Source of the DNA: Schwartzia sp. (in: firmicutes)
GTDB lineage: Bacteria > Bacillota > Negativicutes > Selenomonadales > Selenomonadaceae
Length of the DNA: 47,739 bases
Assembly (NCBI GenBank): GCA_017383125.1
Contig: JAFNYY010000005.1
Coordinates: 1-47,739, forward strand
Reading direction: 5' to 3'
Positions 1,784-33,522 of this stretch are shown one piece after another (within the stretch, counting starts at the first letter, position 1; every line of letters begins with the position of its first letter). The notes under the pieces were generated by a model that was not told the origin of the DNA, did not search any database, and worked only from the letters and a program-made list of their open reading frames with translations. The translations under genes were made by a program, and so were the position numbers.

Positions 1784-1794
1784 TATATTCTCTC

Positions 1795-2625: not shown

Positions 2626-2678
2626 ATTGTCACCCTCTTTAATGGTTATAGTTGCAAATAATGCCTGTAAGAAAACCG

Positions 2679-2755
2679 TTTATCTACGCCGGTACTTAGC
2701 GAACTGCGAATAAGCATATAAAGCAGGAGCTTAGCACCGTTGCGTAGATAACCGA
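2679..2755. repeat. Imperfect long inverted repeat (possible structured RNA or element end)
   Basis: The sequence around GTTTATCTACGCC near 2681 is mirrored by GCGTAGATAAC near 2741, with further short matches (CTTAGC, GCGAATAAGC, TTATTCGC) in and just beyond the loop. It lies in the polA-mutM gap and could be a hairpin in the mutM leader or a palindromic intergenic element. No RNA family recognised. Confidence 0.3.
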
Positions 2756-2865
2756 ATGAAAATGTGTTTTCGTCAGGCTTTATTCGCAACTTATGTTTAT
2801 TCGGCTCAAAAAATCTTCCGCTCTGATAATGTTTGTTGGAACGCTACCAGTCTTTGCCAGCATGT

Positions 2866-2986
2866 CACCCCTCCGGCCTCGCTTAGCTCGGCCACCTCCC
2901 CTAGAGGGGAGGCTGGATTGCCGTCAACCCATAGGACTCCCCTTCAGGGGAGCTGACACCGAAGGCGGCTGAGGGGTAAAAATCCG
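2866..2986. repeat. Palindromic GC-rich intergenic repeat
   Basis: This begins ACCCCTCCGGC and ends GGCTGAGGGGT, so its ends are inverted copies of each other. Inside are two smaller hairpins, CTCCCCTAGAGGGGAG and CTCCCCTTCAGGGGAG. Related pieces occur near 7786-7985, 11750-11797 and 21483-21535. It resembles short non-coding mobile repeats (MITE/REP-like) and has no reading frame of its own. It fills most of the gap between polA and mutM. Confidence 0.6.
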
Positions 2987-3051
2987 CAGAAGCGGGATTG
3001 ACAGATTCCATGAATTAGGCTGCATCAAGTCTGTAGTGAAACTATTCTTCC

Positions 3052-5520: not shown

Positions 5521-5640
5521 CTCTATCACCATCCTTGTAAGAGATTACACTACAATTATTTAATTATACCACAACAATCTCATTATTCTTAGAAAAATAT
5601 CACATTTAGAGTAACGGATGAGGCGTGGCTCTTTAAGACA

Positions 5641-8911: not shown

Positions 8912-10744
8912 TTATTTGTCTGCAGCTGCCTTGATGGCATTCTTGCGGGCACGGCCACGGGTAGTATGGTCGAGGACGACCTTGCGGAGACGAACATTCT
9001 GCGGAGTGACCTCTACCATCTCGTCATCGTTGATGTATTCAAGTGCCTGCTCAAGGCTGAGGATACGGGGCGGTACAAGGCGGATAGCCTCATCGGAGGA
9101 GGAGGTACGCATATTGGAAACATGCTTTGCCTTGCAGGGGTTGATGTCGATATCCAGCTCGCGGGTATTCTCGCCGACAATCATGCCCTCATATACGGAC
9201 TGACCCGGGGAGATGAACATTACGCCGCGATCCTGGAGAGTGAAGATACCGTAGCCGGTGGTCTCACCCTGCTCAAAGGCAACGAGGGAGCCGTGGGTAC
9301 GACCCGGGATGTCGCCCTTGTATGGTACATAGCCGTGGAATACATGGTTCATGATGCCGTTGCCCTTGGTATTGGTAAGGAGCGCGGAGCGGAAACCGAT
9401 AAGGCCCCGGGCCGGGATAACGAACTCCATACGGATGTAGGAGGAAACCTCGGTCATGTTCAGCAGCTCAGCCTTGCGGCGGCCCAGCAGATCCATAACG
9501 GTACCCATGTACTCCTGGGGCACTTCGATGGTAAGGTTCTCGATAGGCTCGCAGAGCTGACCGTTAATAGTCTTGTAGATAACCTCCGGCTTCCCGACCT
9601 GCAGCTCGTAGCCCTCACGGCGCATGGTCTCAATGAGAATGGAAAGGTGTAGCTCACCGCGGCCGGAAACCTTGAAGGTATCGGCAGAGTCGGTCTCCTC
9701 TACACGGAGGCTGACATTGGTCTCTACTTCCTTGAACAGACGATCACGGATGTGACGGCTGGTTACGAACTGGCCTTCCTGACCGGCAAAGGGGCTGGTA
9801 TTGACGCCGAAGGTCATGGAAAGGGTCGGCTCATCAATATTGATGGTAGGCAGAGCCTCCGGAGCATCTGCATCGGCAACAGTCTGGCCGATGGCTACAT
9901 CGGTAAGACCGGTGAAGGCAACGATATCGCCCATGGATGCGGTCTCAACCTCGACGCGCTTCAGACCCTGATATACGAAGATTTTACCAATCTTGGCCTT
10001 CTTCTCATGATCACCGTCGGTGAGGATAACATTCTGGTTTACCCTGGCAGTACCGCGGATGATGCGGCCGATAGCTACGCGGCCTACATATTCGTCTGCC
10101 TCGAGGGTAGTAACCATCATCTGGAGCGGGCCGTCGGCATCGCCCTTCGGAGCCGGCAGCTCCTTGACCATCATGTCGAAGAGCGGGGTCAGGTCCTTGT
10201 TGTCGTCAGCCATGTCCAGCTTGGCAATACCATCACGGGCGGCGCAGTAAATAGCCGGGAAATCCAGCTGGTCATCATCGGCACCCAGCTCCATGAACAG
10301 CTCCAGAACCTCATCATAGACATCGTCTACACGCTGGTCAGGACGGTCAATCTTATTGATAACAACGATAGGCTTGAGCTTCTGCTCGAGAGCCTTTCGG
10401 AGAACATATTTCGTCTGGGGCATCGGGCCTTCAAATGCGTCAACCAGAAGGAGAACGCCGTCAACCATGTTCAGTACGCGCTCTACCTCACCGCCGAAGT
10501 CGGCGTGGCCCGGGGTGTCAACGATGTTAATCTTTACATCCTTGTACATGATAGCGGTATTCTTGGAAAGAATGGTAATACCGCGCTCACGCTCGATATC
10601 GCCGGAATCCATAACGCGCTCAGCTACCTGCTCGTTGGCGCGAAATACATGGCTCTGCTTGAGCATGGCATCGACCAGTGTGGTCTTGCCGTGGTCAACG
10701 TGAGCAATAATGGCGACATTGCGCAAATTTTCCCTGGTGGTCAT
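8912..10744 (-). CDS. typA: Ribosome-associated GTPase TypA/BipA
   Basis: Translational GTPase that binds the ribosome and assists 50S assembly and stress adaptation. 610 residues from ATG 10744 ([20 protein letters not shown]), typical for TypA. G1 is [10 protein letters not shown]2 lies in RERGITIL, G3 is [12 protein letters not shown] and G4 is NKIDRPDQR. Domain II, domain V and the TypA-specific C-terminal domain follow. AGGAGGAAGGA precedes the ATG. The frame extends upstream to 10966, but that part overlaps the promoter. Confidence 0.97.
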
Positions 10745-10883
10745 TTGAAAATCCTTCCTCCTGTTACTTTCTACATTAAATGCTACTCTTACGCAAAAGC
10801 GTGTTTTGACAAATAGGCTACTGACCGAAAAAGGCACACAAAATAATAAGCACACCATGGAACTTCTCGTGTCAGCAAATTTC

Positions 10884-10912
10884 ATAATATTATATTCTTT
10901 TTTTGGTGTCAA
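10884..10912 (-). promoter_or_regulatory. Strong sigma-70 promoter for typA
   Basis: Perfect TTGACA (10907-10912 on the minus strand), a 17-base spacer and TATTAT (10884-10889). The leader to the typA start would be about 130 bases. Confidence 0.75.
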
Positions 10913-10960
10913 CAGTTTTCTGTATAGTTGAGCCGTCGCCCAGCAAACGGCCGCCCCGTA

Positions 10961-10988
10961 TTGCATAAATTCCCCCTTGTGATAGAAT
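10961..10988 (+). promoter_or_regulatory. Promoter for the acidic duplicated protein gene
   Basis: TTGCAT (10961-10966), a 16-base spacer and TAGAAT (10983-10988), reading right, divergent from the typA promoter. Confidence 0.5.
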
Positions 10989-11027
10989 GGAAGTCAGGGA
11001 AAATACCGGTGTATTGGAGGTATGCAA

Positions 11028-11741
11028 GTGGAGAACTGGGAAATTCCAGGGCCGGCTGCCACGGCTGACAGTACCCTGAAGGATTACATGGTTTCGGTAA
11101 TGGAAAGCTCTTTTTACTTTGAAAACCATGCATTTGGCAGCACCCTAAAGGAATACGCAAATTCCTTTGAAATAGATGCCTACTATGCTGCCGAGGATGA
11201 TGACTCAGGCTTCTGCCCCATTCGGGAGGATGATGCCATCGTTGAAATCACGGTGTCCATTGACGAGGGCACCTGCTGTCTCGGCTTTGTTTTCGATTCG
11301 GAGGAGGAGTACGGTGTCTTCAGCCTCTGCTATGCCCACGACGGCGAAGCCTCCTTTGATGACCCCGAAGCAGCCATGTCCGTGCTGGAGCCTTATTTTG
11401 CCGAGGCTGAGCTCAACCGCCTCATTGATTTCGTCATGACCAGCTCCTACTATTTTGACGATCTCCCCTTCGGAGAAACAATCCGCCATTGTGCCGATGA
11501 ATTCACCATTGAGGCCGGATTCGCCGAGGAGGACTCTGACGCCGGTATGTGCTCCGTTGCCGAAGGCGAAGGACTCGTCATGATAGAGGCAGTCGCCGCC
11601 GGCCAGCGCTTCTACATGGAGTTCGTCTTCAAAGCGGAGGACGATTACGGCACCTTCTATATGTGCTACGGAGAAGTTGATGAGGAGCCGGTGGAGGACT
11701 TCGATGAATTTATTGCGGCTCTGGAGCCTTTTTTCGGGTAA
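11028..11741 (+). CDS. Acidic protein with two tandem copies of an unknown domain
   Basis: 237 residues, very rich in Asp and Glu. Residues about 12-118 and 125-235 are two copies of one module. Each starts with a helix ending in SSFYFEN or SSYYFDD, then FGSTLKEYANSFEIDA or FGETIRHCADEFTIEA, and ends LEPYF or LEPFF. No signal peptide or membrane segment is seen, so it is probably cytoplasmic. GTG 11028 lies seven bases from GGAGG; ATG 11022 is only one base away and so less likely. Family and function not recognised. It stands alone with its own promoter. Confidence 0.8.
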   Translation: MENWEIPGPAATADSTLKDYMVSVMESSFYFENHAFGSTLKEYANSFEIDAYYAAEDDDSGFCPIREDDAIVEITVSIDEGTCCLGFVFDSEEEYGVFSLCYAHDGEASFDDPEAAMSVLEPYFAEAELNRLIDFVMTSSYYFDDLPFGETIRHCADEFTIEAGFAEEDSDAGMCSVAEGEGLVMIEAVAAGQRFYMEFVFKAEDDYGTFYMCYGEVDEEPVEDFDEFIAALEPFFG

Positions 11742-11749
11742 GTACTATT

Positions 11750-11797
11750 ACCCCTCCGACTTAGCTTCCCTCAGCCACCTCCCCTAAAGGGGCGACT
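11750..11797. repeat. Partial copy of the GC-rich intergenic repeat
   Basis: ACCCCTCCGACTTAGCTTCC followed by CACCTCCCCTAAAGGGGCGA matches the left half of the 2866-2986 element. It sits between two convergent genes (11028-11741 and pdxR). Confidence 0.55.
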
Positions 11798-11804
11798 TTA
11801 TGGG

Positions 11805-13217
11805 TTACTTTCTAAGCTTTACGACCTCTTTACTTATGAGGTTAACCGCTGTCACAATCTGCTCTGCCGATAATGAAGAGTAGTTTATAAGGAAATCATG
11901 CTGGCTCCTGTTTTCCTCCTGCCAGCAGTACTCCGACAATCCCCGGAGCCTCACTCCCTGACGCTCCATTATGCCGGAGAATTCCTCATCGGTGCAGGGG
12001 ATATCCAGCCGCAGCAGGAAATGCAGTCCTGCATCCTCCTCCAGTATCTCTGCAAAGGCAGCCATCGGGCTGCCTTTTATTGTTTCTGTCAGAAGGTCCC
12101 TCTGCTTCCGGTAGAAATTTCTCATCCGGTTGATGTGTTTCTCGAAATAGCCCTTCTCAATAAATTTCGCCGCCGTCAGCTGGATTATTGTCGTTACCGG
12201 GCAGGAGTAGAAGGAAAGCCGCCGGTAATACTCGCTCATCAGATGCTTAGGCAGTACCATATAGCTCATTCGTATTGTGTTGGAAATGGACTTTGAGAAG
12301 GTATTCATATATATGACCCGTTCATTCACATCAATGCTCATAAGTGTAGGTATCGGCTTCCCCGTCATCCGGAATTCGCTGTCATAATCATCCTCGATGA
12401 TATATCTGTCCTCCCCCCTGGATGCCCAGCCCAGCAGTTCATACCGCCGGCTTATAGGCGTTATCCTTCCCGTGGGGAACTGATGCGACGGCGATATGTG
12501 CGCCACCTGCACCTTCTCCTTCTCAAGCTGCTCCACACATATACCGCTGCTATCCAGCGGGATATGACGCACCTTTGCCCTGCTGGCTTCGTAGACTCTT
12601 GCTGTCTTGGGAAAACCAGGATCCTCGACTCCGTAGATTTTTTCCTGTCCAAGCAGCTGCACCAGCTGTCCGTAAAGGTACTCCGTCCCGGCTCCGATGA
12701 TTATCTGCTCCGGGTCAACGGTCATATTGCGAAAGGCGAGCAGATACCCGGCTATTGCCCTGCGCAGTACAAGAGCGCCGCCGCTGGGGGGCATTACAAG
12801 CAGCTCCTCCTGATAGTCCGACAGGCACTCCCTCAACAGCTTTGACCACACCGTGAAGGGAAACATCCCGATATTGGAGCCGTTGCCGGAGAAATCTGCC
12901 AGATATTGCCGGGACTCTCCCGTCACGGCTGCATTCTCTCCGGTGATACTCCCCGGCCGCTTCTCTGCCCGACTGCTTATGTCCGCTGCAAAAAAACCCT
13001 TCTTGGGGATGGAATAAATATATCCCTCATCGATGAGCTGATTGTAGGCATTCTCCACGGTAATGACACTTATACCCAGATTTTTCGCGAAACTCCGCTT
13101 GGAGGGCAGCTTCTCCCCCGGTCTTATACGGCGGGAGATTATGTCCTTTTTCACACATTTATACAGATGCTCATAGAGCGAATCTGACCCTATATCCTCA
13201 AAAGAATAAGTCAACAT
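11805..13217 (-). CDS. pdxR: MocR/GntR-type regulator with aminotransferase domain (PdxR-like)
   Basis: 470 residues. The N-terminal winged helix-turn-helix (about 1-75, GEKLPSKRSFAKNLGISVITVENAYNQL) is joined to a fold-type I aminotransferase-like domain. That domain has the PLP region IEDDYDSEFR and the lysine segment NTFSKSISNTIRMSYMV. It reads away from pdxS, so it is very probably the PLP-sensing activator of pdxST and repressor of its own gene. I chose ATG 13217; the frame extends to 13508 only by running through the shared promoter region into pdxS. Confidence 0.88.
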   Translation of the reverse strand: MLTYSFEDIGSDSLYEHLYKCVKKDIISRRIRPGEKLPSKRSFAKNLGISVITVENAYNQLIDEGYIYSIPKKGFFAADISSRAEKRPGSITGENAAVTGESRQYLADFSGNGSNIGMFPFTVWSKLLRECLSDYQEELLVMPPSGGALVLRRAIAGYLLAFRNMTVDPEQIIIGAGTEYLYGQLVQLLGQEKIYGVEDPGFPKTARVYEASRAKVRHIPLDSSGICVEQLEKEKVQVAHISPSHQFPTGRITPISRRYELLGWASRGEDRYIIEDDYDSEFRMTGKPIPTLMSIDVNERVIYMNTFSKSISNTIRMSYMVLPKHLMSEYYRRLSFYSCPVTTIIQLTAAKFIEKGYFEKHINRMRNFYRKQRDLLTETIKGSPMAAFAEILEEDAGLHFLLRLDIPCTDEEFSGIMERQGVRLRGLSEYCWQEENRSQHDFLINYSSLSAEQIVTAVNLISKEVVKLRK

Positions 13218-13273
13218 TTCCCCATTATCCTCGTTTCTGACCTTTCTGAATATATCCAATCTGATTATTTCTT

Positions 13274-13316
13274 TATGGTCAGTTTTATTATACTGTATTG
13301 GCCATAGAAATTGCAA
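13274..13316. promoter_or_regulatory. Divergent pdxR/pdxS promoter with PdxR-type inverted repeat
   Basis: Minus-strand TTGCAA (13311-13316) and TATAAT (13287-13292), 18 bases apart, form a good pdxR promoter. An inverted repeat, TATGGTCA (13274-13281) and TGGCCATA (13299-13306), straddles it with centres 25 bases apart. The arrangement fits binding by a MocR dimer controlling both genes. Confidence 0.55.
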
Positions 13317-13417
13317 TGCGATTCCTCCCCCTGCCCTTCGGGTATCTCCCGCCGGACAAATGCCGACAACGGCAATCGGGACATCAAACTGCTGCATTAC
13401 AGAAAAGAGGATGTAAA

Positions 13418-14293
13418 ATGACGAACGAACGCTATGAACTGAACAAAAATCTCGCCCAAATGCTGAAGGGCGGCGTAATAATGGATGTAACAACCCCGGA
13501 GCAGGCAAAGATTGCCGAAGCCGCCGGAGCCTGCGCCGTCATGGCCCTTGAGCGGATTCCTGCCGACATCCGGGCCGCCGGCGGTGTTTCCCGCATGAGT
13601 GATCCCAAGATGATACGGGGCATTCAGGAGGCTGTGTCTATCCCCGTCATGGCCAAATGCCGTATCGGTCACTTCGCTGAAGCCCAGATTCTCGAAGCCA
13701 TCGAGATTGACTACATCGACGAAAGCGAAGTCCTCTCCCCCGCCGACGATGTGTACCACATCGACAAGACCAAATTCAAGGTTCCCTTTGTCTGCGGAGC
13801 GAAGGATTTAGGTGAAGCTCTCCGCCGCATAAACGAGGGTGCCGCCATGATTCGTACCAAGGGAGAACCGGGTACCGGCGATATCGTGCAGGCCGTCCGT
13901 CATATGCGGATGATGAACAGTCAGATTGCCAAACTCACCGCCCTCCGGGAAGATGAGCTGTTCAACGCGGCAAAGGAGCTGCAGGTTCCCTACGATCTCG
14001 TACAGTATGTCCATGAGAAGGGCAGGCTCCCGGTGGTCAATTTTGCCGCCGGCGGTGTCGCCACCCCCGCCGATGCCGCTCTCATGATGCAGCTGGGCGC
14101 CGAAGGAGTATTCGTCGGCTCCGGCATCTTCAAATCCGGCAATCCGGAGAAGCGGGCCAACGCCATCGTCAAGGCTGTAACGAACTACAAGGATGCCGCC
14201 ATGCTGGCAGCCCTCTCCGAAGACCTTGGTGAAGCAATGGTCGGCATCAACGAAAGTGAGATTCAGCTGCTGATGGCTGAAAGAGGCAAATAA
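13418..14293 (+). CDS. pdxS: Pyridoxal 5'-phosphate synthase subunit PdxS
   Basis: Synthase subunit of the deoxyxylulose-5-phosphate-independent PLP pathway. It joins ribose 5-phosphate, glyceraldehyde 3-phosphate and ammonia from PdxT. 291 residues, canonical start [15 protein letters not shown]. The active-site lysine is in [10 protein letters not shown], and the phosphate-binding [12 protein letters not shown] motif is intact. GAGG precedes ATG 13418 by seven bases. The stop overlaps the pdxT start (TAATG). The region is C-rich on the coding strand, consistent with its lying on the lagging strand. Confidence 0.97.
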
Positions 14294-14853
14294 TGGCCAT
14301 CGGAATTGTAGCAGTTCAGGGCGCATTCCTTGAACACGAAAAAATTCTGGACCGGCTGGGGATAGAGTATGCCGAGCTTCGTCAAAAATCAGACCTTGAC
14401 AGAGAATACGACGGCCTCATCCTACCGGGAGGCGAAAGCACCGTACAGGGCAAGCTCCTGAAGGAACTGGATATGTTCGACACGCTGAGGGGATGGATTG
14501 CTGCCGACATGCCGGTGCTGGCTACCTGTGCCGGAATGATTCTTCTAGCGGAGAAGCTTTCCAACGATGACAAAGAATATTTCCGGTCTATCCCCATGAC
14601 CGTACGGCGCAATGCCTATGGCCGCCAGGTGGGCAGCTTTCACACTGCCGCCGCCTTCGGGGATAAGGGTGTCATCCCTATGACCTTCATCCGGGCGCCC
14701 TTTGTCGAATCTGCCGCTCCGGAGGCAGAAATTCTGTCCGTCGTGGACGGAAACATCGTCGGTGTCAGATACAAAAATCAGATTGCCCTGGCCTTCCACC
14801 CGGAGCTTGACGACGATCTGACAGTTCATCAGGCATTTATAGGTATGATATAA
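14293..14853 (+). CDS. pdxT: Pyridoxal 5'-phosphate synthase glutaminase subunit PdxT
   Basis: Class I glutamine amidotransferase that supplies ammonia to PdxS. 186 residues. Motifs: GVxAVQGAFLEHE at the N-terminus, LPGGESTVQ, the nucleophile cysteine in ATCAGMIL (about residue 78), and the catalytic His-Glu pair in AFHPEL near the C-terminus. It overlaps pdxS by one base and so is translationally coupled. The terminator at 14982-15026 lies downstream. Confidence 0.96.
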   Translation: MAIGIVAVQGAFLEHEKILDRLGIEYAELRQKSDLDREYDGLILPGGESTVQGKLLKELDMFDTLRGWIAADMPVLATCAGMILLAEKLSNDDKEYFRSIPMTVRRNAYGRQVGSFHTAAAFGDKGVIPMTFIRAPFVESAAPEAEILSVVDGNIVGVRYKNQIALAFHPELDDDLTVHQAFIGMI

Positions 14854-14981
14854 AACGAAAAAATGCAAGCGTACCCGCTGACAAGGATTCGCCATCCTAA
14901 CGCCAGGGCAGGAATAAAGCCTTGATCTTCCTTTCCTGGACGCCCCCTTTTCTTGCCGTCGGTGTATGCATCATCTGAAAT

Positions 14982-15026
14982 AAAAATCCGCAGCTGTTCA
15001 CATTTCGTGAAGGTCTGCGGATTTTT
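14982..15026. terminator. Bidirectional terminator between pdxT and the serC operon
   Basis: Perfect 12-bp arms AAAAATCCGCAG (14982-14993) and CTGCGGATTTTT (15015-15026). A run of T follows the stem in both directions, so it serves the convergent pdxST and serC-serA-DUF1015 transcripts. Confidence 0.85.
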
Positions 15027-15049
15027 GTTTCCAGCTTTATCTGTACTGG

Positions 15050-16282
15050 TTATTTAATTCGTCTCGCTTCCAGATAATAGCGCTTTTCCTTCGCATGACC
15101 GATGGAGAAGGTCTTCCGGGGAAGCGCACCCTGCGCCTGAATGGAGTCGAAGAGCGCACCCTTATCGAAGGGCGGCAGGATAAGGCCGAGGGTATCAGGT
15201 GCCTTTGCCAGCTCCTCTACAGTATCCTCTCCGTGGATGTAGTCTATGCTGCCATCATGCTCAGAGAGATAAGCGTCCAGGAAGTCCTGCACAATCTTGA
15301 CTGTCAGCTTGCCCTTGGTGGGGTCGACTTTTATCGTGCCATGCTCGGCTCCGGCCACCCATGACAGAGGATACCCCTCTGCCGCACCGATTTCAGCCTG
15401 CAGCTTATCAAGCAGACCCTTCACATCACAGCTGGCGATGACACGATGGATAGGCTCAAATTCCTGTGCCTCGTCCTGTATGTTTTCGATTTCTACCATC
15501 GCGTAGCGGGAGGGATGCTTAGCCGCCTCCTCTGGACTCAGCTTGGCCTTGACCGCTTCATAGCAGGCCTTGGCTGTGGCCAGAGAGTGATTGCCGTCGC
15601 CTACCGCCAGCACCACGGGAGCCTGTCCCTGATACTTGGCATTGCACTTTGCTTCATATCCGGCAAAGAGGTCGTCTACCGCTGCTTTCGCCTCGCCGCT
15701 GATGAGCCAGCCGGTAATATGGCCGCCGCCGCACATCAGGTCGAAGTCGTACAGCACCGGATAACTCCCCTTGTTGGCCTCGCAGTTCCCCAGCAATGTA
15801 TCCTCTGTCTCATCGCAGAACAGAATGATATGGGGCAGCTCCACCGGAGCATTCTCACGGATAGCGACCCGAGGCGGTATACGCTCCAGTACCGTCTGCT
15901 CCGTTGCCCGGATTGAGCAGCTGGCATCTGACTTGTAGCTGTACTGCTCCAAATCTATTACGCCCAGCAGACCGCGACGGATTTTACCGTTCAGCAGAGT
16001 CCGCTCTACATATACATAGCTGTCGGCACAGCACCGGAACACCCCCTGCTCCAGATAGCTCTCCATATTGGCATTGATTTGGGGAATCAGCTTCTCATAG
16101 CCCGGCTGCAGCCGGCACTCCGGCAGCACCAGTCTGAGGGTACTGGGAGCATCACCTACATTATCCTCTACCTCCTGCCAATATTCCGGCTGGGAGGTGA
16201 ACTGGTCGCAGGCAATGACCGACCAGCGGAAAAAATCCTCTATCTTCGGCAAAAGAATATCGGTTGCAGTAAACAAATTCAT
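15050..16282 (-). CDS. DUF1015 family protein
   Basis: 410 residues, matching the DUF1015 family: N-terminal ATDILLPK, the middle segment GLLGVIDLEQYSY, and the conserved VLAVGDGNHSLATAKACYE. The biochemical role of the family is not established. It is often found beside serA and serC in Firmicutes, as here, 31 bases after serA. That position suggests a link to serine or phosphoserine metabolism, which is inference. GAGGT precedes the ATG. Confidence 0.9.
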   Translation of the reverse strand: MNLFTATDILLPKIEDFFRWSVIACDQFTSQPEYWQEVEDNVGDAPSTLRLVLPECRLQPGYEKLIPQINANMESYLEQGVFRCCADSYVYVERTLLNGKIRRGLLGVIDLEQYSYKSDASCSIRATEQTVLERIPPRVAIRENAPVELPHIILFCDETEDTLLGNCEANKGSYPVLYDFDLMCGGGHITGWLISGEAKAAVDDLFAGYEAKCNAKYQGQAPVVLAVGDGNHSLATAKACYEAVKAKLSPEEAAKHPSRYAMVEIENIQDEAQEFEPIHRVIASCDVKGLLDKLQAEIGAAEGYPLSWVAGAEHGTIKVDPTKGKLTVKIVQDFLDAYLSEHDGSIDYIHGEDTVEELAKAPDTLGLILPPFDKGALFDSIQAQGALPRKTFSIGHAKEKRYYLEARRIK

Positions 16283-16313
16283 TGACTTACCTCAAATTCA
16301 AAACTGCTGATTA

Positions 16314-17906
16314 TCAATGGCGGCAGTCGATGAGCTTAACATCGAGGATGCCTTCTATGCCGCGAAGCTGCAGCATGATGTTATTGGGAATGTCATCTCC
16401 CACGGCAATGGCCATGATATTGGTGCCATCCTGAAGGGTCTTGCCTACCACCATGCCGTTGATGTTTATTCCGGCACCGCCGAGAATGGTTGCCATCTGA
16501 CCAATCATGTTCGGACGGTCAGCATGGGGCAGAAGCAGAAGAATACCCTTGGGGGAGAAGTCTACATGGTAATCGTCAATGCGGACAATCTTCGGCTCCT
16601 TGCCGTCAAAGAGGGTACCCATGACGGTATGCTCACCCTTGTTGGTGACGACCTTCAGTTTGATGGTGGTGCTGAAATAGCCCTGCTTATGGGATTTGAT
16701 TTCACGGACATCTATATTGCGACGCTTAGCCAGCTGCGGAGCGTTGACGAAGTTTACGCTTTCCTGCAGGATGGGATTCAGCAGGCCCTTTATGACAGCG
16801 GTGCTGAGAGCCTGTACCTCGGTCTCAGCCAGCTCGCCGGTATACTCTATCTCTACCTCGCTGATGGGGCCTTCGGCAAGGTAAATACCGATGTTGCCGA
16901 TACGCTCTGCCAGCGGGAAATACGGCTGAATGACCTGAGCGACCTCACGGGGGATGGGGCTCATATTGACCGCGGTCATGACAGGGCGACCCTCCAGCGC
17001 CTCAATAACGCCATGAGCACCGTCTACGGAAACGCTGATCTGTGCCTCGACAGTGGAAGCGCCAAGATGCGGAGTCTGAACAACATTGAACATGCCGAGG
17101 AACGGATTGCTATCAGCGGTCAGCGGCTCCTTCGGATAAACATCGATAGCCGCGCCGGCGATTTTACCGGATTTCAGAGCGGCAGCGACAGCATCTGCAT
17201 CCATGCACTTGCCCCGGGCAACATTGATGAAGCGCACGCCGTCTTTCATCTTGGCGATGGCTTCAGCGTTAATCATATTGGTGGTCTCTTTGGTCAGCGG
17301 AGTGTGGATAGTGATATAGTCGGAGGTAGCCAGCAGAGTATCAAGGTCTACCAGCTTGACGCCTACCTGATGGGCACGCTCCTCGGTGATATACGGGTCG
17401 TAGCCGATGGTAGTCATTTCCATAGCCTGCATACGCTTTGCTACGCGGCTGCCGATACGGCCGACACCGATGATACCCAGGGTCTTGCCCTGAAGCTGGA
17501 CGCCGTCAAAGCTCTTTCTGTCCCACTTGCCCTCCTGGATGGACTGATGGGCCTGGGGAATATGACGGGTGATGGCCATAATCATGGCGCAGGTATGCTC
17601 AGTAGCCGCAATGGTATTGGACTCCGGAGTATTGCAGACCACGATGCCCCGGGCAGTAGCTGCCGGAATATCTATATTGTCTACACCTACGCCGCAGCGG
17701 CCGATTACTTTCAAATTGGTTCCTGCATCAATCAGACGCTTGGTGAAGCGAATCTGACTGCGGGTCAGCATGGCATCGTACTCACCGATAATCTTGACCA
17801 GCTCGTCCTCGCTGAGGTTGGGCATTACATCTACTTCAAACTCAGGATGCTTCTTCAGGACTTCTACGCCGGCCGGGCTTACATCATTCGATACAAATAT
17901 TTTCAT
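16314..17906 (-). CDS. serA: D-3-phosphoglycerate dehydrogenase
   Basis: First step of serine synthesis, NAD-dependent oxidation of 3-phosphoglycerate. 530 residues, the long form. The Rossmann domain has GIIGVGRIGSRVAKRM. Active-site residues lie in NVARGKCMD, DVYPKEPL and QTPHLGAST. The allosteric substrate-binding region (about 330-450) and a C-terminal ACT domain (about 455-530, for serine feedback) follow. AGGAGG precedes ATG 17906. It lies 36 bases after serC, in the same T-box-controlled transcript. The huge antisense frame across serA and serC is a codon-bias shadow. Confidence 0.97.
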   Translation of the reverse strand: MKIFVSNDVSPAGVEVLKKHPEFEVDVMPNLSEDELVKIIGEYDAMLTRSQIRFTKRLIDAGTNLKVIGRCGVGVDNIDIPAATARGIVVCNTPESNTIAATEHTCAMIMAITRHIPQAHQSIQEGKWDRKSFDGVQLQGKTLGIIGVGRIGSRVAKRMQAMEMTTIGYDPYITEERAHQVGVKLVDLDTLLATSDYITIHTPLTKETTNMINAEAIAKMKDGVRFINVARGKCMDADAVAAALKSGKIAGAAIDVYPKEPLTADSNPFLGMFNVVQTPHLGASTVEAQISVSVDGAHGVIEALEGRPVMTAVNMSPIPREVAQVIQPYFPLAERIGNIGIYLAEGPISEVEIEYTGELAETEVQALSTAVIKGLLNPILQESVNFVNAPQLAKRRNIDVREIKSHKQGYFSTTIKLKVVTNKGEHTVMGTLFDGKEPKIVRIDDYHVDFSPKGILLLLPHADRPNMIGQMATILGGAGININGMVVGKTLQDGTNIMAIAVGDDIPNNIMLQLRGIEGILDVKLIDCRH

Positions 17907-17942
17907 GTTATTTTCCTCCTATATAACACAGATAATATCAGA

Positions 17943-19016
17943 CTATTGATTGTCCTTCATATACTGCTTCATAAATTCAGCCAGAGCCTCGCAGGCTTCC
18001 ATCGGCACCGCATTGTAAGTGCTGGCCCGGCAGCCGCCTACCAGACGGTGACCGCCGATACCTACGAAGCCGGCAGCCTTTCCTTTGGCTACGAAGTCTT
18101 TTTCCATTTCCGCATTGGCAAGATTGAAGGTGATATTCATCTTGCTGCGGTATTCCTTATCTGCATGGCCCTTGTAGAAGCCGTTGCTGTTGTCGATGAC
18201 ATCGTAGATGACCTTCGCCTTGGCCTCGTTGCGCCTTGCGATTGCATCTACACCGCCCATAGCCTTTATCCAGTGCAGGGTCTTGTTGACCATATAAATG
18301 CAGAAAACCGGCGGCGTATTGTAGAGCGAATCATTGTCTGCAAAGGTCTTGTACTTCAGCATGGTGGGCAGGTCCTCTCTGGAGGTCGCCAGGAAGGACT
18401 TCTTCACGATAGCCAGTACAACACCGGCAGGAGCCAGATTCTTCTGAGCGCCGGCATATATCAGGTCAAATTCCGCCACATTGATTTTCCGGGAGAGAAT
18501 ATCGCTGGACATATCGCAGATGACCGGCACATCGAACTTAGGAAAGCTCTGCCACTCGGTACCGTAGATGGTATTGTTGCTGGTAAGATGCACATAGGAT
18601 GTATCCGGCTCCAGCTTATAGCTCTGAGGGATATAGCTGTGATTCTTATCCGCAGAGGATGCAGCCTCATAGGCCTCACCGTAGAACCTGGCCTCGGCCA
18701 TAGCCTTCTTGGCCCAGACACCGGTATTCACATAGGCGGCTTTTGCCTTGGTATGGAAATTCGCCGCCGCCATCAGGAACTGTGTACTACCGCCGCCCTG
18801 AATAAAGAGGATTTCGTAATCCTCGGGAATCTCCATCAGCTCACGCAGCAGCTCCTTAGTCTCCTGATGGAGCCTGCTGTACTCGGGACTGCGATGACTC
18901 ATCTCGATGATGCTCATTCCGGTGCCGGCATAGTCGGTAAACTCTGCCCGGGCCTCCTCAAGCACCTCTAAGGGCATTGCCGAAGGGCCGGCGTTAAAAT
19001 TATATGCTCGACTCAT
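17943..19016 (-). CDS. serC: Phosphoserine aminotransferase
   Basis: Second step of serine synthesis: transamination of 3-phosphohydroxypyruvate with glutamate. 357 residues from ATG 19016 (MSRAYNFNAGPSAMP). The PLP lysine is in YAGAQKNLAPAGV. Substrate-binding residues include the MSHRSPEY segment, and the C-terminus has the GHRLVGGCRAS motif. The longer upstream frame reads through the T-box and is not used. First gene of serC-serA-DUF1015. Confidence 0.97.
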   Translation of the reverse strand: MSRAYNFNAGPSAMPLEVLEEARAEFTDYAGTGMSIIEMSHRSPEYSRLHQETKELLRELMEIPEDYEILFIQGGGSTQFLMAAANFHTKAKAAYVNTGVWAKKAMAEARFYGEAYEAASSADKNHSYIPQSYKLEPDTSYVHLTSNNTIYGTEWQSFPKFDVPVICDMSSDILSRKINVAEFDLIYAGAQKNLAPAGVVLAIVKKSFLATSREDLPTMLKYKTFADNDSLYNTPPVFCIYMVNKTLHWIKAMGGVDAIARRNEAKAKVIYDVIDNSNGFYKGHADKEYRSKMNITFNLANAEMEKDFVAKGKAAGFVGIGGHRLVGGCRASTYNAVPMEACEALAEFMKQYMKDNQ

Positions 19017-19084
19017 AAATATATTCCTCTTCCTTTCACAGATAAACCGCAGAAAACAGCTTCCGCTCAGCCGAGGACTGTTCA

Positions 19085-19310
19085 CCCAATAAAAAAGCTC
19101 CCGTCCCACATGGGACGAGAACTGCTCGCGGTGCCACCCAAATTCGACTATATAAAAGCCATCTCTTACCTCTGTATCGGGAGCACCCGTTGAACTCATC
19201 GCTCAAAGCTCCGGAGCGGAACGACAGTGGTCATCTGCTGGCTCGCATCAACCGCCAGCTTTCTGTAAACATTGCACTGCGCTTCTCTTTCATCGCCGAA
19301 AATATAAAAT
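19085..19310 (-). promoter_or_regulatory. T-box riboswitch (serine) upstream of serC
   Basis: On the minus strand the conserved T-box GGGTGGCACCGCG lies at 19127-19139. It is followed by a terminator stem (CCCGTCCCA/TGGGACGAG region, 19096-19119) and a T run. Further 5' is a stem with arms GCTGGC/GCCAGC, typical of Stem I. The TGGC bulge would pair with an NCCA end whose discriminator is G, as in tRNA-Ser. A TCC triplet on the 3' side of Stem I (about 19222-19226) may be the serine specifier. Uncharged tRNA-Ser would allow read-through into serC-serA. Confidence 0.9.
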
Positions 19311-25041: not shown

Positions 25042-26139
25042 TTATTCCTTGTATGGATTCTTTAGTTTATCGTCCCGTTCTTTCATCCTGGCCGCAGCAT
25101 CTATCTCCGCCCAGTATTTCATCTGTTTTTCGTATTCCTCTCTGTCCTCGATGACAGATCGGACAAACCCACCGGGATTGCTGTATCTGCCTTCTTTTAA
25201 AAGAGGTTCAATTTTCATCAGGACATGTTCGATCCAACGCTCGCCATACTCTTGTATAAGCTTGTCGGGAACATAATCAGGCTTGATGCCAATCCGCCGA
25301 AGTCTATATGCCAGGAAGGATCTGTTTTCTTCCGGTGTTGTCTCCGCTCTTTCCTCTGCGATTATCTCCTCCGAGCGTTCCATAGTGATAGTGTATCCTG
25401 CTGTCCTGCCACCCTTGAGGAGAGTTTTCGCCGAAACCTTATATTTTGTCTTTTTATTTATTTCCTCGATTGGCTTATCAATAACATTCTTCTTGAAGGA
25501 GGATACCTTTAGCTTGCCGTCGATCATATAGGCGTCATCCTTCAGATTCAGATACCTGCGCAGCTCTTCGATGGTGAAGTTTCGCACTATTTTCTTCGTC
25601 GGCATATTTTTGTGCTGCAGCAGCAGCTCCAACAAACGCAGGGCGTGGGTGCTGCTCACCTGAAACGCTGCATTCAAAGGAAACTTCGTATAAGGTATAT
25701 CCTCCAGCTCCAACAGATACGGTTTTGTCTCTATATTGAAGCAAATTGTCAGTCCTTCTGATGCTCTGAATTCAATTTTTCTGAATACTGGGACCACACG
25801 AAAATCCGGCTTGTTCTTGTCCGAAGAAACATTTATATCTCGAATCGCTTTCGTACCCATATTCTCACAGGTCTTTCGCAGCTCTGTATAGAATCGTTTG
25901 TTGCCGCCAAAGAGGTCGATAATCTCTTTTGTGTCGATATGGATTTCCGGAAACTCATCATCAAAGTACTTCGCATTAGGAAGATGAGGACGAAGGCGCT
26001 GCAATCCAAGGAAGAACAGTCTGCTTTCATTCATGGAAAAAGTTTTTCTTGATTCAATAAGAGGATTGGCCTGATAGACCATTACATCATTGAGATGCTC
26101 AAATTTTGTCTGCTGTTCTTCTTCCTTTTTATTTGCCAA
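25042..26139 (-). CDS. Plasmid-type replication initiator (Rep_3/RepB family)
   Basis: About 365 residues. An N-terminal polar stretch leads to the two winged-helix domains of Rep_3 initiators: WH1 (about 25-145, with NPLIESRKTFSMNESRLFFL and FPEIHIDTKEIIDLFG) and WH2 (about 150-270, with NAAFQVSSTHALRLLELLLQ and FTIEELRRYLNL). A charged C-terminal tail follows. The start is TTG 26139, eight bases after GAGGAGG; the frame extends to 26166. Iterons begin 53 bases upstream, so Rep probably binds its own promoter region. The gene is unlike chromosomal dnaA, yet polA, typA and serA lie on the same stretch. Confidence 0.88.
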   Translation of the reverse strand: MANKKEEEQQTKFEHLNDVMVYQANPLIESRKTFSMNESRLFFLGLQRLRPHLPNAKYFDDEFPEIHIDTKEIIDLFGGNKRFYTELRKTCENMGTKAIRDINVSSDKNKPDFRVVPVFRKIEFRASEGLTICFNIETKPYLLELEDIPYTKFPLNAAFQVSSTHALRLLELLLQHKNMPTKKIVRNFTIEELRRYLNLKDDAYMIDGKLKVSSFKKNVIDKPIEEINKKTKYKVSAKTLLKGGRTAGYTITMERSEEIIAEERAETTPEENRSFLAYRLRRIGIKPDYVPDKLIQEYGERWIEHVLMKIEPLLKEGRYSNPGGFVRSVIEDREEYEKQMKYWAEIDAAARMKERDDKLKNPYKE

Positions 26140-26191
26140 GAGATTTACCTCCTCGTCGACAAGCAATACATAAAAACTGCATTTTCGGTCA

Positions 26192-26873
26192 GGATATTTT
26201 TTGATACTTCATCAAAAGGTCTTTTCAGGCCTGCCCTTCAACGCTTAAATCGGGATAGCTTTTCGAGACCAGATTCTCTTTTTTCCTATCCACCGGCAGA
26301 AACTCCAATAACCAGAAATGCCGCTCCTGAATCATTGTCTTCTGAAATACAACCTGTTCAGAAAAAGCATTGTACTCCATATCTTTCTCTGAAATATTTT
26401 CCGGGATAGTTATTTGATACCTTATATGCCGGCCTTACTGGTCACGGGTTTCACGACCCTCATCGGGATAGTCCTTCGATACTTTTCTATAGAAAGCGGT
26501 GTCTTCTTTCTTCCTTTTTCACGGATATGAGACTGCATAGTATTTAATGTAGAATATATAGCCATGCATGATTTGTAAAGAGCACGATACCTGTGGGATA
26601 GTTTTTCGATACTCTTTTAAAATTCACGCAGCCGCATATATTTTAAAATGTCAGCAAGCCGGGATAGTCTTTCGACACCTCGCAAATACTGGCGCTGTAT
26701 CGCACTCTCCAGGGAGGTATCGGGATAGTTCTTTGACACTTTTCCAAAATACCCTCGTTGCTCAATTTCAAATCGAAAAAGCCTCGACCTCCGCGGGATA
26801 GTTTTTTGACACCCAAATGGTAAGTCCATATTACCTGAGCAGCGGTCAGCAGGCCATGATAGTTTTCTGATAC
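26192..26873 (+). repeat. Iteron array 1: nine 17-bp units, about 61-73 bp apart
   Basis: Consensus GGATAGTTTTTCGATAC. Units start at 26192, 26253, 26404, 26466, 26596, 26662, 26723, 26796 and 26857. Intervals are 61, 151, 62, 130, 66, 61, 73 and 61. The two long gaps are about twice the unit step, as if a copy had decayed in each. The first unit has 16 bases. Confidence 0.85.
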
Positions 26874-26985
26874 TTTTGAGATATCTCGGAGAGTCGTTGT
26901 CACATTACTCGCACGCATCAGTATGAAGCAGCTCAAACACCTGTTATCGGCTTCCTTACCTTTAGTATACTAACACATTCCTTTC

Positions 26986-27222
26986 GTATCGGCAAGCTTT
27001 CCTTTTGTATCTCTTTTCTATCCCAGAGTATCTAAATACTATCCTGTATAAGTATCGAAAAACTATCCTCTTGATTTGACTTTCAAATCTGAGGGACATG
27101 TCTATCTGATTTCTATCCCTTTTATCTTAAATCTATGCTTCGGTATCTCTTTCATATCCTTCAGTATCTGACATCTTTCCTTTTGTATCTTTTTTCTATC
27201 CCGCATTATCGAATTCCTATCC
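26986..27222 (-). repeat. Iteron array 2: ten inverted units, mostly 21 bp apart
   Basis: The complement of the array 1 unit (GTATCGAAAAACTATCC) starts at 26986, 27007, 27028, 27052, 27102, 27122, 27143, 27164, 27185 and 27206. The 21-bp step equals two helical turns, so Rep would bind on one face. One position near 27077 is degenerate. Confidence 0.85.
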
Positions 27223-27311
27223 TCCGCACAGCCGCATTTTCATCTTCTTTTTAAACTGACAGTTTTTTCCAAGAATACTATGTAGAATCAGGATACTCCC
27301 GTCATGCGTCG

Positions 27312-27328
27312 GTATCGAAAACCTATCC
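27312..27328 (-). repeat. Single iteron between arrays
   Basis: GTATCGAAAACCTATCC, one mismatch from the copy at 27052; it stands alone 84 bases before the first DnaA box. Confidence 0.8.
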
Positions 27329-27411
27329 TTACTTAAAACGATTTCTGCCGCTTGACCGTATTCTGTACCAGGGCAGAGGTCTACGAACCAGAAAACCCCC
27401 GGATAACATGG

Positions 27412-27453
27412 TTATGCACAAAGCTTTAGTAGTTATCCACCGAGTTATCCACA
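27412..27453 (+). other. Cluster of three DnaA boxes
   Basis: TTATGCACA (27412-27420), TTATCCACC (27433-27441) and TTATCCACA (27445-27453), all in the same orientation. The first and third fit the TTWTNCACA consensus exactly; the second has one mismatch. They sit directly beside iteron array 3. Confidence 0.8.
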
Positions 27454-27458
27454 GCCAG

Positions 27459-27583
27459 GTATCTAAAATCTATCCCGAAAGTATACTTCTGCTATCCTCA
27501 AAGTATCAATTTCCTATCCCAACGGTATCTAATTGCTCACCAAAAGTATCTTTTTTCTCTCTCAAAGTATCACATACCTATCC
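27459..27583 (-). repeat. Iteron array 3: six units, 21-22 bp apart
   Basis: Units start at 27459, 27481, 27503, 27525, 27546 and 27567, in the same orientation as array 2. The fourth and fifth are degenerate at the CTATCC end. The array lies between the DnaA boxes and the AT-rich block, the usual place for origin iterons. Confidence 0.85.
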
Positions 27584-27599
27584 CAAAAAATTACGCAGC

Positions 27600-27715
27600 C
27601 CTTTACAGATAAGGCTTTCCGCGATAATAAAGCAATATAAAGCATTAAAAAACAATATCTAAAAGAATCAAAATAGAATATATTGTTTTTCTTTTTAGAT
27701 AAAAATAGGAAGATG
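27600..27715. other. AT-rich block, likely DNA-unwinding element
   Basis: Strongly AT-rich, with A-tracts and T-tracts. It contains perfect 11-bp inverted arms AAAAACAATAT (27648-27658) and its complement (27680-27690). Its position next to array 3 and the DnaA boxes fits the site where strands first open. Confidence 0.6.
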
Positions 27716-27777
27716 AAGCTACCTCCTGCATTAACAAGACAAAATCTGCTGGGAATGGATAGCAACAGATAGTTTAA

Positions 27778-27850
27778 GTATCGAAAAGCTATCCCGTAAA
27801 AACATGGTACTCATCAAACCTGATCTAAATGCAGGATAGGAAAAAGATAC
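27778..27850. repeat. Two iterons in opposite orientation flanking the right edge
   Basis: GTATCGAAAAGCTATCC at 27778-27794 and the inverted GGATAGGAAAAAGATAC at 27834-27850. They bracket the region just upstream of the kinase gene and could affect its promoter. Confidence 0.75.
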
Positions 27851-27937
27851 TCGCAAATTATCGCGTCTTGACCATAAAAGATAAGGATGATATATTTAAT
27901 CTATATAGAGGTTAACTGTCGTGCTGAGGACAATACT

Positions 27938-30086: not shown

Positions 30087-30120
30087 AAAGGCGAGTCGAT
30101 TTCGCGACTCGTCTTTTTTT
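30087..30120. terminator. Bidirectional terminator between the kinase and parB
   Basis: CGAGTCG/CGACTCG hairpin (30092-30111) with A-rich sequence on the left and seven or more T on the right. Confidence 0.8.
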
Positions 30121-31105
30121 AGTCTTCCTGAGCAGAGAGGATAAATGTTTTTTCTTCTCCGGTCCTGAGCTTTACAGTTACCTGCATTTTAACGGGATTT
30201 TCAGAGAGAACTTTGGTGATTTTCATTAGGAGGGAACAGCCAACATTAAGGCCGTCAGACTGGAAAAGTGTTTTAGCTATATACTTTTCCTTTATCTCAG
30301 GCGGCTTCATATTTTCCCAATCCTGAGTCAAAAGCTCACGCTGGACAGCGGGGGGGAGGGAAGATATGAGACGGGCTTTGGTGGTGGCCAGTCGCAGGCC
30401 GTATTCCTTCTGGAATTCCGGAATCAGTTTTTTTGCAATCTGCGTATATATGCCTGCCTGACTGCGGGAAATACCAAATGTGTTGGCGACGCGCTGAAGA
30501 ATATCTCCATCACCGTAGTAGGAGTGAGCCTTTTCCAGCTTCACCATTTCCAGAACGGACTTGAGCTGAAGCTGGGGTGCTTCCTTTGCTCTGCCGAGTC
30601 CGTTGTTCAGGATGCAGATTCGCCGGGCATCAGCCTCGGTCAGTGTGCCGTAGGCATATACCTTCGCCGGAATGGAAGAATAGTGGGAAGATTTTACGCT
30701 GTCTCCTTTAGCACGGTAATCCTCCAGGAGCTTTTTATACGCCCGGAGGCGGGTATGACCGCCGAGGATGGTATATCTGCCGTTGGGCCGGGCCCAGACA
30801 ACAATCGGACACCAGAGACCGTCCTTGTCGATGCTGGTGACAAGCTCTTCAAAACGATTTTCTTCCAAAGGCGGGAAAAAATTCCATTCATTGGGAGCAG
30901 GGTCAAGCAGGTCAAGCTTTATTACGGAATCGGTGCAGCCTTTGTATAATCTGCGGTAATTTTCATCGGCCCTGATGGCGTCCTGCTTGGCTTTTTCCTT
31001 TGATAATAGTCCGCTGGCGCCTATTTCGGGAGCAATCTTAGCATCGGTACTAATATCGAAGGAGCCGAGTCCCAGGAGCGTCTTTCCTTTAATTTTGTCA
31101 GCCAA
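30119..31105 (-). CDS. parB: ParB-family centromere-binding protein, plasmid type
   Basis: 328 residues. The ParB/Srx N-terminal domain (about 60-150) includes LVTSIDKDGLWCPIVVW and the CTP-binding-type motif GGHTRLRA in place of the GERRxRA usual in chromosomal Spo0J. The central helix-turn-helix is RVANTFGISRSQAGIYTQIA, and a C-terminal domain (about 270-328) probably dimerises. TTG 31105 is the start, overlapping the parA stop by eight bases, so the pair is translationally coupled. It should load and spread at parS; the palindromes at 24930-24977, 30043 and 45641 are the candidates. Confidence 0.88.
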   Translation of the reverse strand: MADKIKGKTLLGLGSFDISTDAKIAPEIGASGLLSKEKAKQDAIRADENYRRLYKGCTDSVIKLDLLDPAPNEWNFFPPLEENRFEELVTSIDKDGLWCPIVVWARPNGRYTILGGHTRLRAYKKLLEDYRAKGDSVKSSHYSSIPAKVYAYGTLTEADARRICILNNGLGRAKEAPQLQLKSVLEMVKLEKAHSYYGDGDILQRVANTFGISRSQAGIYTQIAKKLIPEFQKEYGLRLATTKARLISSLPPAVQRELLTQDWENMKPPEIKEKYIAKTLFQSDGLNVGCSLLMKITKVLSENPVKMQVTVKLRTGEEKTFILSAQED

Positions 31106-32078
31106 GTCTGCTCACCACCTCTTTAGCAAGATTCATATATTCGAGAGAAATCTTGTCCTTTGGTCGCCGTACGGTAAGCAGCTCTGAACGAAGCTCGGAT
31201 TGTCTTGCTACCTGACCGCGGGAAATCTGAGTGGTGAAAAGCATCTCAGCAGGAAGCGTATCGGTGACACCTTCATAGGCCAGGTCGGTTGACTGTGTGC
31301 CCCGCTCGACGATGTTGAAGAATACGCCGAGGAGAGAAAGCTCCGGAGAAGCAATCTGTATCTTTTTTACGAAGCGAATCATACGGATAATGGCTTTAAT
31401 AGAGCTTTTGTCGAGCGTGGTGGGAACGAGGACGCAGTCAGCAGCAAGGAAAACGGAGCTGGTATCTTCGTTGAGATCAGGATGGGTGTCGACAATGATA
31501 TAGTCGTATTTATCTAGGTCTTTAACAGCCTGAATGATGCGCTTCAATATATTGATGCCGTAGTCATTTTTATAACTGCGAATTTCCTTGCAGGCATTTA
31601 TTAGGCCGTCATCTCCAGCGATAATATCAAGGTTGTCAACAGAGGTGCTGAGAATGTAGTCTTCTATGGAACCGGGCTCATCCTTAGTGTATTCAAATAC
31701 AGCATCGGTCAGGGTGATATGATGGGGAAGACTGGAGCCGGTCATCCGGGCCTGATAGTTGTATTCCGGGTCATATTGCAGCAGCTCGGACAGACTGCCC
31801 TGATGGTCGAAGTCTATGAGAAGAACCTTATTGCCAAGCTTGGTGAGGCTATGGCCAAGGCATCCTGCTGCGGTGGTTTTTCCGATACCGCCCTTATCAC
31901 TGGCGATTACAATCGCTTTGGCGGTCGGTTTTCTGAGCTTGGCAACCATTTTTATACCCTCCTCAATAATCGAAGTCTGGGTTCTGCCTGATGCACTGGC
32001 GAGTTCATCCAGTCGTTCCTTGGCTTCTTTGGAAACCCGGCTGGGAATTCGGCCTATATCTTCCGGTTTTTTTGCCAT
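31098..32078 (-). CDS. parA: ParA-family partition ATPase with N-terminal RHH-like segment
   Basis: 326 residues. Residues about 10-50 (RIPSRVSKEAKERLDELASA, then SGRTQTSIIEEGI) look like a ribbon-helix-helix DNA-binding unit. The ATPase follows with a deviant Walker A (KGGIGKTT, about 63-70), Walker A' (LLIDFDHQG) and Walker B (YIIVDTHPDLNED). ParA drives segregation of ParB-parS complexes over the nucleoid. GGAGG lies seven bases before ATG 32078. The promoter and a symmetric operator are immediately upstream, and the fused RHH segment is the likely autorepressor. Confidence 0.9.
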   Translation of the reverse strand: MAKKPEDIGRIPSRVSKEAKERLDELASASGRTQTSIIEEGIKMVAKLRKPTAKAIVIASDKGGIGKTTAAGCLGHSLTKLGNKVLLIDFDHQGSLSELLQYDPEYNYQARMTGSSLPHHITLTDAVFEYTKDEPGSIEDYILSTSVDNLDIIAGDDGLINACKEIRSYKNDYGINILKRIIQAVKDLDKYDYIIVDTHPDLNEDTSSVFLAADCVLVPTTLDKSSIKAIIRMIRFVKKIQIASPELSLLGVFFNIVERGTQSTDLAYEGVTDTLPAEMLFTTQISRGQVARQSELRSELLTVRRPKDKISLEYMNLAKEVVSRLG

Positions 32079-33505: not shown

Positions 33506-33522
33506 GGATATCTTTTCGATAC
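33506..33522 (+). repeat. Outlying iteron
   Basis: GGATATCTTTTCGATAC fits the array 1 consensus with two or three changes, yet lies 5.6 kb beyond the last origin iteron, just after the SGNH gene. Confidence 0.55.

Follow-up and report, generated by a model that had tools for sequence, protein, structure and literature searches.

The region between the rep gene and a histidine kinase gene on a Schwartzia sp. contig appears to be where a Rep_3/iteron replicon starts its replication and controls its copy number; this replicon carries essential genes and is most likely a chromid. Two dense iteron arrays (arrays 2 and 3) would serve initiation and autoregulation, and a sparse array (array 1) would act as an inc-type locus for titration and handcuffing; we give this reading a probability of about 0.7. 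The window, by which we mean the whole stretch of DNA analysed, comprises 47,739 nt of contig JAFNYY010000005.1, forward strand (assembly GCA_017383125.1, Schwartzia sp., Selenomonadaceae), and its own draft genome (G000) amounts to 1.76 Mb in 134 contigs. The locus was compared with that of the nearest relative, a Selenomonadaceae MAG referred to here as the sister (contig JAUNIB010000005.1, 152 kb; locus L020 on G001:C13), which was not used in building the weight matrix described below.

Iteron arrays and origin in the window and its relatives

The genes flanking the region are as follows.

25042..26139, minus strand: rep, Rep_3 family initiator, 365 aa (Pfam Rep3_N 4e-22, Rep3_C 2e-9)
28261-30021: hybrid histidine kinase, to the right of the iteron region
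30119..31105, minus strand: parB-like gene (Pfam ParB_N 5.9e-6)
31098..32078, minus strand: parA (Pfam AAA_31 1.7e-32; sister copy 97.5% identical)

Rep is 94% identical between the two species, and its relatives with solved structures in the PDB are RepE of F and pi of R6K. The most likely start is the TTG at 26139, just preceded by GAGGAGG, and this ribosome-binding site is kept in the sister. Positions 26140-27886 are non-coding except for short reading frames without support. Within this region lie about 30 copies of GGATAGNNNNNNGATAC, a motif that was refined by iteration and then scanned for with a 17-position weight matrix trained on the window itself. The sites and the elements among them are listed below; they were found by the matrix scan unless stated otherwise.

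26191..26873, plus strand: array 1, nine sparse right-reading iterons adjoining rep, matched unit by unit to the sister; core starts 26191 (degenerate), 26253, 26404, 26466, 26596, 26662, 26723, 26796, 26857
26944..27222, minus strand: array 2, 12 dense left-reading iterons including weak ones, the same block being present in the sister; cores 26944, 26965 (read by eye), 26986, 27007, 27028, 27052, 27102, 27122, 27143, 27164, 27185, 27206
27312..27328, minus strand: isolated left-reading iteron, at distances 106/107 and 147/148 (window/sister)
27412..27453, plus strand: three DnaA boxes just before array 3, TTATGCACA at 27412, TTATCCACC at 27433 and TTATCCACA at 27445
27459..27583, minus strand: array 3, six dense left-reading iterons; cores 27459, 27481, 27503, 27525, 27546, 27567 (steps 22, 22, 22, 21, 21, identical in the sister)
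27600..27710, unstranded: AT-rich stretch, presumed unwinding element, read directly; A/T character kept in the sister, sequence different
27778..27794, minus strand: isolated left-reading iteron, with a perfect copy in the sister
27834..27850, plus strand: right-reading iteron at the far edge, kept in the sister, 56/54 bp (window/sister) from the preceding site
33506..33522, plus strand: remote single iteron-like site GGATATCTTTTCGATAC, strong, 5.7 kb from the array and beyond parAB

The scan bore out the units as real: 26141-27870 holds 25 sites above 10 bits, whereas 100 first-order Markov shuffles averaged 0.11 such sites and never exceeded 2, and all 13 exact matches to GTATCN6CTATCC in the window's genome lie at 26404-27850. 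As an independent test, the window-trained matrix recovered the whole arrangement at the sister locus and scored just a single site above 13 bits elsewhere on the 152-kb contig. In the sister, nine sparse right-reading units (with one additional right-reading unit and one reversed unit) come first, then a dense block reading left, a single site and the DnaA boxes; these are followed by six closely spaced left-reading units, one isolated left-reading unit and one isolated right-reading unit. Both the scan and the sister locus confirm the two opposed orientations described in the first-pass annotation. Its count of 16 left-reading units 21-22 bp apart rises to about 18 when weak ones are included, and the steps of array 2 range from 20 to 24 bp, with one of 50. 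For array 1, nine right-reading units 61-73 bp apart had been described; eight are good and one, at about 26191, is degenerate with a 5-nt instead of a 6-nt gap, and because this unit aligns with a perfect unit in the sister, nine is the right number. Two of the eight intervals (151 and 130 bp), however, fall far outside the range given. The first reading had also left unseparated the isolated sites at 27312 and 27778 (left-reading), 27834 (right-reading) and 33506; for the last of these, the sister has no counterpart above 13 bits at this place.

Judged from sequence, the repeats are true arrays of predicted binding sites belonging to a plasmid-type replication origin. A CRISPR-like array, with a repeat and spacers of about 40 bp, was considered and rejected: the middles of the units vary, the units match the dense iterons, and their place is the origin. 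GATC is absent from the iteron consensus. The region yielded neither a further class of Rep site (a clear dimer operator, for example, or a counterpart of the Vibrio 39-mer) nor any other long multicopy repeat family; as to an operator of inverted half-iterons at the rep promoter, the palindrome TTAGTATACTAA of the window is out of register in the sister.

The locus has what is expected of a Rep_3 replicon, namely an initiator with two winged-helix domains (Rep3_N and Rep3_C both above the Pfam cut-off), head-to-tail iterons about 21-22 bp apart near rep (arrays 2 and 3), and DnaA boxes with an AT-rich unwinding region beside the iterons. The sister has four DnaA boxes at the corresponding place. 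GC skew in the window is negative to the left and positive to the right of 27-28 kb, with a sharp flip at the arrays, and on the sister contig it flips at 57-60 kb and is mostly one-signed out to both ends. Since the skew flips at the arrays, and the DnaA boxes and the AT-rich stretch flank the dense array, the region is predicted to be a replication origin. The earlier proposal that the dense arrays serve opening is supported, on sequence evidence, by the coincidence of DnaA boxes, AT-rich stretch and skew flip at one place.

Several features lie outside the origin. Short interspersed repeats of about 110-140 bp occur at 7793-7925 and 2657-2790 of the window, and a DNA search found several dozen relatives on most large contigs of the sister genome. 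A 39-bp tandem repeat stands at 44053-44143 inside a TolA-like reading frame. The sister has Type I-F CRISPR-Cas genes (Csy3 and a Cas2-Cas3 fusion; L069:3624-10081, C13 at about 43-50 kb) less than 15 kb from its origin, and they are apparently absent from the corresponding place in the window. Elsewhere in the sister genome (G001:C11:69320-69387), six DnaA boxes with up to one mismatch fall within about 70 bp, near a skew minimum and about 29 kb from dnaA, and form a candidate chromosomal oriC.

A related Rep was found in 32 of 189 Selenomonadaceae genomes. Several relatives on small contigs have about 5-8 iterons of their own motif, mostly about 21-22 bp apart, and some loci show no clear motif. 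A second genus (g21; L055-L058 and L037) has large origins built on a different motif, TTATGATACAATTAGGTCATG, with 20-25 units in the four full loci; L037 covers the first part only. The orientation string --+-+--++-+++---++++++ is nearly the same in all five loci, with a few extra or missing units, and 9-15 sparse units of mixed orientation at helical multiples (steps of 21, 31, 42, 52 and 63 bp) are combined with a terminal dense array at 21-22 bp. This spacing is phased, in that none of 5000 simulations reached the observed value. GC skew flips at rep in this genus also, and on a 280-kb contig (G101:C3, L103-L116) the minimum lies at the Rep_3 gene and the maximum about 140 kb from it, which is the pattern of a circle replicated in both directions. 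That contig, which has no tested core gene except a weak TypA-like match, is probably a near-complete megaplasmid; a search for end overlap as a sign of circularity found none in it or in the 152-kb sister contig. Extra partial DnaA-like matches, some with internal stop codons, were also seen in g21 (G104:C5, G021:C24, G100:C9 and G101:C3/C13/C14). The layout of the window would then be a variant of a larger type, namely the family's big Rep_3 replicons, in which the sparse array is close to rep and the dense one farther off.

Essential genes and the nature of the replicon

The following core genes lie to the left of the origin.

1175..5532, minus strand: coaE, mutM and polA (NCBIfam equivalogs)
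8912..19199, minus strand: typA, pdxR, serA and serC (NCBIfam equivalogs)

The sister contig additionally carries miaB, mutS, mutL, PBP1A, polC, tyrS and tRNA-Arg. There is one full-length copy per genome of mutS, polC and tyrS; the sister's copies are on its Rep_3 contig, and those of the window's genome are on other contigs (C52, C57 and C118), separate from the window contig in the draft. Core genes stand on both sides of the origin in the two species, with the right side coming from the sister's longer contig only. A chimeric assembly is unlikely because two MAGs agree on the arrangement. An essential part of the genome appears to be copied by plasmid machinery.

Several properties of chromids are found here. 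Plasmid-type replication and partition genes are present (Rep_3, ParA and a ParB-like protein), together with core genes of the relatives' chromosomes (polA, coaE, mutM, typA, serA and serC, and in the sister the sole polC, tyrS and mutS). The G+C content is 48.7%, against 50.8% for the dnaA contig (the chromid criterion being about 1%), and dinucleotide distances overlap the within-contig range. As to separateness, Rep_3 and dnaA are on different contigs, the latter with its own skew minimum and DnaA-box clusters, so that two skew minima are seen, all in draft assemblies. The arrangement points to one of two things, a chromid or a chromosome that contains a plasmid origin, and a chromid is the simplest reading.

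It is possible, if doubtful, that the Rep_3 origin is part of the main chromosome, where it would be an additional or a replacing origin left by an integrated plasmid or a replicon fusion. The sister's 152-kb contig, with the only full-length polC, tyrS and mutS besides polA, coaE, mutL and miaB, holds a usual chromosomal set, and neither of its ends shows a terminus or circular overlap. In the closed genome of a relative, G009, polC, coaE and polA are adjacent, as are polA, coaE and mutS in G030. Furthermore, gene-order scatter against G009 is equal for the Rep_3 contig and the dnaA contig, although the presumed g21 megaplasmid scores alike when core-gene scatter and ortholog density against G009 are taken. 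Against a chromosomal location, the second skew minimum and the DnaA-box clusters on the dnaA contig point to two origins, which are rare on one chromosome; the replicon has its own ParAB; and the second-genus relative resembles a replicon of its own, since the skew maximum of its 280-kb contig is opposite its origin. A dif-site search for the number of replicons returned AT-rich chance matches. One might tentatively suppose that a plasmid Rep_3 origin is now an essential origin of the genome, possibly in the main chromosome, copying the only polC, tyrS and mutS as well as polA, with copy control set by how far apart the opposed iterons stand in the rep leader, roughly six and seven helical turns.

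Geometry and possible role of the sparse array

How the sparse array might act depends in part on where rep transcription starts, for which we found one conserved candidate.

26967..26995, minus strand: candidate rep promoter TTGCCG-N17-TAGTAT, overlapping the first units of array 2

The candidate has the top minus-strand promoter score in the sister and the third in the window, and it lies inside the longest and best-conserved non-coding stretch of that part. A stricter consensus scan did not recover it, and in the window a rival minus-strand promoter at 26579-26551 outscores it, though that site as a whole is not conserved. If the promoter at 26995-26967 drives rep, array 1 falls within a rep leader of about 820 nt, and it is probably transcribed as part of that leader.

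The intervals of array 1 are 61-62, 151, 62, 130, 66, 61, 73 and 61 bp, the first being 61 or 62 since the unit at 26191 is one base short. Compared interval by interval, window and sister have 62/62, 151/127, 62/62, 130/133, 66/74, 61/62, 73/74 and 61/62 bp, so that five of the eight distances agree within 1 bp and three differ by 3-24 bp. The spacers tell a different story: seven of the eight are at the shuffled level of identity (0.20-0.35 versus about 0.3), the exception being the spacer between units 1 and 2 (0.41 versus 0.25 shuffled). The units themselves keep 14-19 of 19 bases, apart from unit 1 with only 11. Selection on geometry is the best explanation for distances that persist where sequence does not, and the distances of array 1 do look selected. 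This geometric constraint, like the conservation of the promoter-like site, is a sequence result.

Helical phasing is not significant for array 1 of the window alone (p ~0.35). In the sister, however, none of 5000 simulations reaches the observed value at 10.5 bp, and p = 0.003 with the period left free. The two kinds of array had been described as differently phased; this is so for spacing, whereas no difference in helical phase emerged, the sparse sites of the sister and of the second genus also lying near multiples of 10.5 bp.

We propose that arrays 2 and 3 become occupied by Rep monomers, which together with DnaA open the AT-rich stretch so that replication starts in both directions. By binding the first units of array 2, Rep would cover the rep promoter and limit its own synthesis. 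Array 1, in the transcribed rep leader, would be an inc-type locus that titrates Rep at its nine sites, and contacts between Rep molecules within the origin or across it (handcuffing, looping) would stop re-initiation. The fixed distances of 61-62 and 73-74 bp, about six and seven helical turns, would hold the bound proteins on one face for pairing. We infer binding of Rep to both arrays and inhibition by array 1, since opening at dense arrays and a cis array that lowers initiation by titration and Rep pairing are established for P1, as well as for F and Vibrio ori2 (PMC13028717, PMC6090056). Of the two functions suggested earlier for the wide array, autoregulation or titration, a regulatory role is favored by distances that are kept where spacers are not; direct autoregulation is more likely to reside in the first units of array 2, because the best candidate rep promoter overlaps array 2 and not array 1. 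The opposed orientation, by contrast, need not favor handcuffing as had been thought, for the second genus combines mixed orientations with helical spacing.

Other roles for array 1 fare less well. It may mainly block rep transcription, with Rep bound in the leader as roadblocks instead of titrating or handcuffing, and indeed RNA polymerase starting at the conserved promoter upstream of array 1 must pass nine sites before rep; the conserved 61-62 bp distances are not needed for this, and we consider it unlikely. That the units are decayed iterons or drifting duplicates without function is very improbable: the unit at 26191 is degenerate, GACAC occurs in three units and GAGAC in one, and the spacing in the window is irregular, yet the units and five of the eight distances are kept between species whose spacers are randomised, and the variants occur at matching units (units 6 and 7 share GACAC, and unit 2 shares GAG). 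An action of array 1 as RNA, by structured or antisense control, would suit its probable transcription, judged from the promoter position, but can be dismissed almost entirely, as the fold of the leader is ordinary against shuffles (z = -0.28), an Rfam search of the leader gave no match, and spacer sequence is not conserved, so that an RNA element in the leader was rejected.

Comparison with known systems

The first-pass view that typical iteron origins have one array overlooks F (oriS and incC) and P1 (incC and incA). In F, the second iteron set is a negative regulator acting through RepE-mediated looping (PMC13028717). Like F oriS/repE/incC, the window has an initiator of the Rep_3 family, dense iterons accompanied by DnaA boxes and AT-rich DNA, where opening would occur, and a second iteron set. 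F differs in having 4 + 5 iterons, with incC downstream of repE, whereas the window has about 30 sites, with the sparse set upstream of rep, in opposite orientation and at a spacing of 61-151 bp. P1 (oriR/incC/incA) has a separate, irregularly spaced incA array for titration and handcuffing, which lies on the far side of repA. Unlike incA, the sparse array of the window is in the probable rep leader and has conserved distances.

In chromosome 2 of V. cholerae, ori2-min and ori2-inc (RctB) form a dense phased initiation array and an adjacent inhibitory array (PMC6090056). Both this origin and that of the window are plasmid-type origins on an essential replicon, with a dense array and an adjacent second array. 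The window differs in its Rep_3 initiator and its host, a member of Selenomonadaceae, and no 39-mer class, Dam sites or crtS were identified in it. The fused V. cholerae strains NSCV1 and NSCV2 have oriC-type and plasmid-type origins in one cell, although a two-origin chromosome is exceptional and confined to single strains (PMC6284228). The present case resembles them in having both origin types in one cell, possibly on one chromosome, but its layout is common to two species.

Iteron chromids are confined to beta- and gammaproteobacteria according to one review (PMC6090056), though a later survey finds chromids in eight phyla including Bacillota (PMC12456017). BPc2 of Butyrivibrio proteoclasticus is a small chromid of 302 kb (PMC2914790); its host shares the phylum Bacillota with that of the window's replicon but belongs to a different class. 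A search of open-licence papers on iterons in Butyrivibrio, Selenomonas megaplasmids and Negativicutes chromids returned nothing relevant. As far as we found, what is new is the number of sites (about 30) and the opposite orientation of the sparse array, its place between the probable promoter and rep, and its conserved distances. Essential genes on such a replicon also appear to be new to the same extent, and we found no report of a chromid for Selenomonadaceae in the open-licence literature.

What is known of iteron control comes mostly from Vibrio and from plasmids of proteobacteria. In Selenomonadaceae, two genera have large Rep_3 origins in which sparse sites lie next to rep, and the sites of the Schwartzia genus keep most of their spacing despite replaced intervening DNA, which makes the geometry of handcuffing directly testable. 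If confirmed, a plasmid-type origin copying essential genes (polC, tyrS) would be a clear case, in this group, of a plasmid system tamed for essential replication.
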